Shown in pieces: positions 62,795 through 64,000 of a stretch of 64,000 bases of DNA. Under the pieces are notes generated by a model, which did not search any database, had not been told where the DNA came from, and saw nothing but the letters and a program-made list of their open reading frames with translations. Positions within the stretch are counted from its first letter, which is position 1. Each line of letters begins with the position of its first letter. Both the position numbers and the translations under genes were made by a program. This stretch comes from Thioalbus denitrificans (GTDB taxonomy: Bacteria; Pseudomonadota; Gammaproteobacteria; DSM-26407): contig NZ_QPJY01000002.1 of the NCBI RefSeq assembly GCF_003337735.1, forward strand, positions 248,001 through 312,000. Reading direction: 5' to 3'.

Positions 62795-62973
62795 TTCCTC
62801 CTCTCCCGGCGGCTTCGCACCGCACATCGGGGCCGATGCCCCGCGCCCCGTATCCATGCGCTGATCTGCCCACCCGCGGTCGCTGCGGCGGACTCCGTTG
62901 CGGCGCTCTCCGGCGAGGGATGGCTTCCGGACATCCGTTTTGTGAACCGCGTCACATCGGAGAGCGTGGACAT

Positions 62974-63001
62974 TTGCTTTTAACCCCCTATTGCCCATAC
63001 T
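62974..63001 (+). promoter_or_regulatory. Candidate rpfF promoter
   Basis: TTGCTT (62974-62979), 16 bp, CATACT (62996-63001), overlapped by CCCATACTTGGG. The leader would be about 98 nt and is AT-rich with an 8-T run (63047-63054), unlike its surroundings. The rest of the 339-bp gap shows no gene. Confidence 0.4.
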
Positions 63002-63105
63002 TGGGTCAAGGCAAAAAGGCTCTTCTATGTGCCTGTTTCAGATGTATTTTTTTTGATCTTTGCCAGTTCACTCAATGGGTCACCAGCGTACCAAGGGGGT
63101 TCGCC

Positions 63106-64000
63106 ATGTCTTTTGAAAGCAAGAAGTTCCAGGGCAGTGTCCAGGCCTACTACGAGCAGCTGACCACCCGTTTCGACATGGAGCACGGCATCATCTGGCT
63201 CTACATGCACGCCGCTCCGCGACCCTGTTTCACCCCGCGCCTGCTCGAGGACCTGCGCAAGTACCAGCGCATCCTGGAAAACCACGGCGGCCGCTTCCCG
63301 GCCAACGGTGAGCTCCTCCCCGTCAACTACCAGGTGCTCACCTCCGACGTTCCGGGCGTCTACAATCTCGGCGGGGATCTCAGCCTGTTCATGTCGTTGA
63401 TCCGGGAACGGGATCGCACCGGCCTGCTGAAGTACGCCACCGCCTGCATCGACGTTCTCTTCCCCAACGCCATCAACTACAACCTGCCCCTGACCACCAT
63501 CTCCCTGGTCAAGGGGCAGGCCCTCGGCGGCGGCTTCGAGGCGGCCCTGTCCAGCAACGTGGTAATCGCCGAACGCGGTTCCCAGATGGGACTGCCGGAG
63601 ATTCTGTTCAACCTGTTCCCCGGCATGGGCGCCTACAGCCTGCTGGCGCGCCGCATCGATCCCATCCGTGCCGAGCAGCTGATCCTGGGCGGCCGGATTC
63701 ATACCGCCGAGGAGCTGTTCGAGATGGGCGTCGTGGACATCCTCGCCGAGGAGGGGGAGGGCGAGGAGGCGGTCTACCGCTACGTGCGCAAGCACAGCCG
63801 TTCCCGCATCGGCCAGCTGGCCATGCAGCGGGTGCGCCAGCGCTACAACCCCGTCACCCATGCCGAGCTGATGGACATCACCCGCATCTGGGTCGACGCG
63901 GCCATGCAGCTGGAAGCCAAGGACCTGAAGGTGATGGAGCGGCTCGTCCGCGCCCAGGACAAGGCCTTCAGCGACGAGAAGAAGGGCGAAAACGCCCACG
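63106..64000 (+). CDS. rpfF: DSF synthase RpfF-like (3' end beyond window)
   Basis: Crotonase-fold enzyme; 298 codons visible and the end is not reached. The catalytic glutamates are placed as in Xanthomonas RpfF: Glu145 in ALGGGFEAALS and Glu165 in GLPEILFNLFPGMGAYS, 20 residues apart. VYNLGGDLSLFMSLIRERD and IWVDAAMQLEAKDLKVMERLVRAQ also match RpfF. RpfF makes cis-2-unsaturated fatty acid signals (diffusible signal factor) from 3-hydroxyacyl-ACP. AAGGGGG precedes ATG 63106. The sensor RpfC and output RpfG are not in view and could lie to the right. Confidence 0.88.
   Translation, partial: MSFESKKFQGSVQAYYEQLTTRFDMEHGIIWLYMHAAPRPCFTPRLLEDLRKYQRILENHGGRFPANGELLPVNYQVLTSDVPGVYNLGGDLSLFMSLIRERDRTGLLKYATACIDVLFPNAINYNLPLTTISLVKGQALGGGFEAALSSNVVIAERGSQMGLPEILFNLFPGMGAYSLLARRIDPIRAEQLILGGRIHTAEELFEMGVVDILAEEGEGEEAVYRYVRKHSRSRIGQLAMQRVRQRYNPVTHAELMDITRIWVDAAMQLEAKDLKVMERLVRAQDKAFSDEKKGENAH

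Follow-up and report, generated by a model that had tools for sequence, protein, structure and literature searches.

A complete rpfFCG cluster, encoding a DSF synthase (RpfF), a hybrid sensor kinase (RpfC) and a response regulator with REC and HD-GYP domains (RpfG), is very probably present in Thioalbus denitrificans, a gammaproteobacterium outside the xanthomonads, judging by the relationships, motifs and order of the predicted genes. A communication system already described for Xanthomonas and for numerous environmental bacteria is probably in use in this organism. The cluster lies across the right edge of the window, the whole 64,000-nucleotide stretch of DNA that was analysed (G000:C2:248001-312000), within a 4.14 Mb assembly that is 99.7% complete. 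The features are listed in Table 1, where L005 designates the DNA past the window edge and an L005 position equals the window position minus 57000.

Table 1. Coordinates of the rpf genes and of the elements preceding rpfF
Feature	Position	Strand	Remarks
Perfect CRP-type box TGTGAACCGCGTCACA, TGTGA-N6-TCACA	62941..62956	.	First base 165 bp before the rpfF start codon
Putative rpfF promoter and AT-rich leader	62957..63105	+	Near-identical in the sister species
rpfF, DSF synthase, crotonase superfamily	63106..64000	+	ATG at 63106; codons 1-298 of 301 within the window
rpfC, hybrid kinase, 852 aa	L005:7254-9812	minus	Beyond the window; directly downstream of rpfF, convergent
rpfG, REC + HD-GYP regulator, 368 aa	L005:10092-11198	minus	Beyond the window; upstream of rpfC, same strand

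The full-length rpfF product comprises 301 amino acids (G000:C2:311106-312011), the final 11 bases of the gene falling past the window end. Its start codon is likely the ATG at 63106. A start at the in-frame ATG at 62836 was rejected, as the DNA of the sister species is diverged there and contains indels. In a search against the PDB, the top four matches are RpfF-family chains (7zq7, 3m6m, 6dgn and 5fus; e-values: 1e-64 to 4e-55), with a bit score of 221.6 to one RpfF-family structure and of 218.2 to the Xanthomonas RpfF (3m6m; e-value: 1e-63), while the first ordinary enoyl-CoA hydratase appears only at an e-value of 1e-14. The protein furthermore matches the NCBIfam equivalog model for RpfF over the model length (NF053515; Bitscore: 255.1; e-value: 7e-76), a score below the curated cut-off of 550 bits, which is a database convention and not a biological criterion and appears to be tuned to proteins closely related to the type protein. 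Because the score falls under this cut-off, membership of the RpfF family is claimed here in the wide sense and not as an NF053515 equivalog. The protein does pass the broader crotonase model PRK08788, scoring 387 bits where 177 are required. In a FastTree phylogeny of 131 sequences, the window RpfF is placed deep inside the RpfF group, in a subgroup that does not include the xanthomonad RpfF. The three crotonases encoded in the T. denitrificans genome are set off from all the RpfF proteins by a branch of 4.1 substitutions per site. The protein is thus separate from ordinary enoyl-CoA hydratases in both the PDB ranking and the tree, and the RpfF-type DSF synthase that the initial annotation had placed at the right edge is confirmed by the sequence matches to PDB entries, the NCBIfam model, the phylogeny and the neighbouring genes.

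Both catalytic glutamates, Glu145 in GGGFEAAL and Glu165 in GLPEILFNLFPGMGAY, are present, together with the RpfF motif context (GGGFEAAL and LPE..F.LFPGMG.YS). The initial annotation had relied on the catalytic residues and their flanking motifs as a match to RpfF. All of these are found, but the glutamate pair is not specific to RpfF: the genome's own enoyl-CoA hydratases carry the same pair (GGGCEL...QPE), and therefore the pair alone is non-diagnostic. At the sequence level, RpfF is set apart by its whole-sequence relationship and by the flanking motif FNLFPGMGAYS.

The flanking DNA, in which a search for rpfC and rpfG or for RpfR had been advised, contains both rpfC and rpfG, arranged as in Xanthomonas. 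The predicted RpfC consists of a membrane sensor, HisKA, HATPase, REC and Hpt domains, the last four scoring above the Pfam cut-off, and the kinase is matched by the RpfC REC domain of PDB chain 3m6m_D (e-value: 7e-26). Its membrane sensor domain alone, present as a single copy in the genome, shares 31-36% amino acid identity with the RpfC proteins of xanthomonad-family loci (e-values: 7e-22 to 5e-31), which were picked by RpfF proteins sharing 71-84% identity with the solved X. campestris RpfF. Hydropathy analysis indicates several membrane segments in the input domain, short of an exact count of the five helices expected for RpfC. The RpfG protein carries the motifs HDIGK and HHERYDGSGYP and is 50-52% identical to its xanthomonad-family counterparts. 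Phospho-acceptor residues can be seen in the sequence. The gene order F(+), C(-), G(-) is also observed in the xanthomonad-family loci.

RpfF matches at an e-value of 1e-30 or better are found in 68 of the 369 sampled genomes of the class, with which the presence of what appears to be a full DSF system in this little-studied gammaproteobacterial lineage is in keeping. A scan of named genomes yielded at least 566 RpfF relatives, and the best 80 of these at least 566, which were kept, include members of Methylophaga, Methylobacillus, Thiobacillus, Thiocystis, Psychromonas, Gallionellaceae, Zetaproteobacteria and Leptospirillum. Among the 61 of these best 80 of at least 566 with 5 kb or more past rpfF, convergent rpfC and rpfG are present in 47, a convergent rpfC only in three and a rearranged order in two, while neither gene is present in nine. 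The initial annotation described DSF as best known from Xanthomonas and Burkholderia, an emphasis that is too narrow, with clusters outside both genera already on record (PMC4504480, PMC8357829). Since rpfFCG clusters had been recorded outside the xanthomonads by 2015 (PMC4504480) and the rpf genes of Leptospirillum, which run in one direction, have been studied experimentally (PMC8357829), the T. denitrificans cluster is not a first of its kind. In a Nitrospirae bacterium (L075), rpfG, rpfC and rpfF are located on one strand, in contrast to the convergent arrangement found elsewhere and resembling the Leptospirillum layout. Nine further loci (L054, L055, L063, L073, L094, L096, L098, L100 and L114) encode RpfF proteins 50-57% identical to that of the window, with the RpfC sensor and RpfG absent from the fetched flank; these may be orphan synthases or may work with a different receptor.

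In X. campestris RpfC, residues R15, D17, S18, E19 and Q22 are required for DSF sensing, and the substitution S18A impairs DSF-dependent functions while S18T is tolerated (PMC5391125). Three of these five residues are conserved in the T. denitrificans protein (D20, E22 and Q25), with Q18 and P21 at the positions of R15 and S18, respectively, so that the sensor motif reads QADPEREQ, as against RPD[S/T]EHAQ in the xanthomonad-family loci. Among the RpfC proteins of 64 relatives, the glutamate is present in 63 and the glutamine, together with the arginine that follows it, in all 64. Given the residues conserved, RpfC is likely a fatty-acid sensor. The two changed residues might nevertheless indicate that a true rpfFCG cluster has drifted in specificity, with RpfC sensing another fatty acid or the system serving mainly to monitor fatty acids or the membrane internally instead of in quorum sensing, and the variability of the Arg15 and Ser18 positions in the relatives, where Glu, Gln and Arg stay, points in the same direction. 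This reading has an appreciable probability but is not the one preferred here: the Ser18 position is commonly occupied by S, T, L, P or G in the relatives, a threonine there is tolerated in X. campestris, and RpfF retains both catalytic glutamates and the core motif. The variable sensor residues constitute a natural series on ligand recognition.

The initial annotation also noted an AT-rich leader with a small palindrome before rpfF, suggestive of regulated expression. Both elements are real, and the palindrome is a perfect CRP box; regulated expression is plausible given a candidate CRP site that is conserved in the sister species and recurrent among relatives. No other site in the window matches with one mismatch or none; 0.81 such matches are expected by chance, and weight is therefore placed on the perfect match of the box and its placement. 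Across the genome, 11 perfect CRP sites were identified, compared to none in the reversed control. Comparison with the sister species STE_91 (96% identity in RpfF) shows hardly any change in the box or in the 150 bp that follow, whereas the 170 bp preceding the box have diverged. A box with no more than one mismatch is located in 11 of 76 rpfF upstream regions of relatives and in three of 625 upstream regions of other ORFs (Fisher P = 3e-9), and a perfect box in 4/76 and 0/625 from the same loci, respectively (Fisher P = 1e-4); both P values are optimistic, as some loci are interrelated, and the use of longest-ORF starts makes the 625-ORF control rough. In a wider set, 15 of 99 rpfF upstream regions contain a CRP box, where 1.0 is expected from shuffles. 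By eye, CATACT at 62996-63001 is a possible -10 hexamer, which would set the CRP box near -61; a sigma-70 consensus scan of the leader returned no canonical promoter. An Rfam search gave sub-threshold matches only, none of them in the leader, where no riboswitch or known RNA was found.

A single CRP/Vfr orthologue exceeds the CRP equivalog cut-off (G000:C1, L149:1492-2127, minus strand). It is closest to Vfr (308 bits), followed by CRP (288 bits) and PDB 3iwz (217 bits), the catabolite activation-like protein Clp, a CRP-like regulator downstream of Rpf in Xanthomonas. A Clp-type regulator responding to c-di-GMP was rejected, the homologue being nearer to Vfr and CRP than to Clp, and among the papers searched, none linked the rpfF promoter to Clp. 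The recognition helix of the orthologue (CSREMVGR) is the only one of the CSRExxGR form among the CRP/FNR proteins whose helix was read, and the E. coli cAMP-contact residues seem, by eye, to be kept. Adenylate cyclases of class III (PF00211) and class I (PF01295) were not found in the 99.7% complete genome; one CYTH protein is encoded, and a class IV adenylate cyclase is therefore possible. The genes near the other perfect sites are mixed, several being predicted ORFs without a family, and a coherent CRP regulon was accordingly rejected. A MASE1-PAS membrane sensor protein is encoded about 110 bp downstream of one of the perfect boxes (G000:C10:66209-66224; L127).

On this sequence evidence, it is moderately probable that rpfF is under real CRP control. 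The box could instead be a chance palindrome, or the site of another CRP/FNR-type regulator, leaving rpfF without CRP control. Such an explanation is credible though not favoured: a box at one mismatch or less precedes rpfF in only about 14% of the relatives, a class I or III cyclase was not found, and 17 CRP/FNR-type HTH domains exceed the Pfam cut-off in the genome. However, the box is perfect, has been kept with the region downstream of it in the sister species although the flank diverged, and is enriched relative to the ORF upstream regions of the same loci; among the helices read, moreover, the CSRExxGR form is limited to the CRP orthologue. The recurring box provides a testable clue to the switch for DSF synthesis outside the plant pathogens. 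Rather doubtful, and put forward tentatively, is the broader proposal that a CRP/Vfr box ties DSF synthesis to the carbon or energy state in many non-xanthomonad proteobacteria, so that signal production follows this state, with the CRP in T. denitrificans being switched by something that is neither a class I nor a class III cyclase and possibly closing a loop with the c-di-GMP output of RpfG.

By analogy with characterised homologues, RpfF would produce DSF by dehydrating 3-hydroxyacyl-ACP and cleaving the thioester, which would yield a cis-2-unsaturated fatty acid. The accumulating signal would be detected by the membrane input domain of RpfC, and phosphate would pass to the REC domain of the kinase itself, then to Hpt and on to RpfG, the HD-GYP domain of which is predicted to degrade cyclic di-GMP. 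When the signal is low, the REC domain of RpfC may keep RpfF inactive, a restraint known from Xanthomonas. A CRP/Vfr-type regulator probably controls rpfF transcription, through putative binding at the upstream perfect CRP box. That the protein is merely an RpfF-like enoyl-CoA hydratase/isomerase of ordinary fatty-acid breakdown, with unrelated kinase and HD-GYP genes as neighbours, could draw on its crotonase superfamily membership, the common glutamate pair and the score under the strict NF053515 cut-off, but is highly improbable given that the e-values of RpfF structures are 40 to 50 orders of magnitude better than that of any hydratase, that a long branch separates RpfF proteins from the genome's own hydratases and that the three-gene convergent layout is kept in Gamma-, Beta- and Zetaproteobacteria.

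The RpfF synthase is homologous to those of the Burkholderia and Cronobacter rpfF/rpfR systems (PDB 5fus and 6dgn), in which the receptor is RpfR (PAS-GGDEF-EAL). Unlike in these systems, an RpfR gene is not the convergent neighbour of rpfF at the T. denitrificans locus; the neighbour is rpfC, as part of the rpfC/rpfG pair. Likeness to the Xanthomonas rpfF/rpfGHC system is observed in terms of the RpfF homologue (3m6m), the sensor-HK-REC-Hpt structure of RpfC, the REC and HD-GYP domains of RpfG and the convergent order, rpfG-rpfC also being convergent with rpfF in X. campestris pv. campestris (PMC4504480). In contrast to the Xanthomonas arrangement, rpfH is absent between rpfG and rpfC, and rpfB is not adjacent to rpfF, the gene upstream of which is nagZ-like, encoding a beta-N-acetylhexosaminidase. 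The locus further differs from that of X. campestris in the two changed DSF-sensing residues, the CRP box before rpfF and a dispersed repeat between rpfF and rpfC. The same three genes have been noted outside the xanthomonads in the clusters of Methylophaga, Methylobacillus, Thiobacillus and Leptospirillum (PMC4504480), and many of the records from these genera among the present relatives show the convergent order. The Leptospirillum genes share one direction (PMC8357829), and T. denitrificans represents a different lineage. As with Clp of Xanthomonas, a CRP-family regulator appears linked to DSF signalling, but the T. denitrificans homologue is nearer to Vfr and CRP and would act upstream of rpfF.

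The repeat between rpfF and rpfC is located just past the window (L005:7041-7209) and consists of a 29-nt inverted repeat, TCACCACGAAG...CTTCGTGGTGA, the arms of which are 86% complementary and 111 nt apart. The arm TTCACCACGAAGNCACGAAG occurs in 73 copies in the genome, often in pairs that face each other approximately 120-280 bp apart, and in none for the reversed control. The repeat has the look of a dispersed element of MITE-like or REP-like type.
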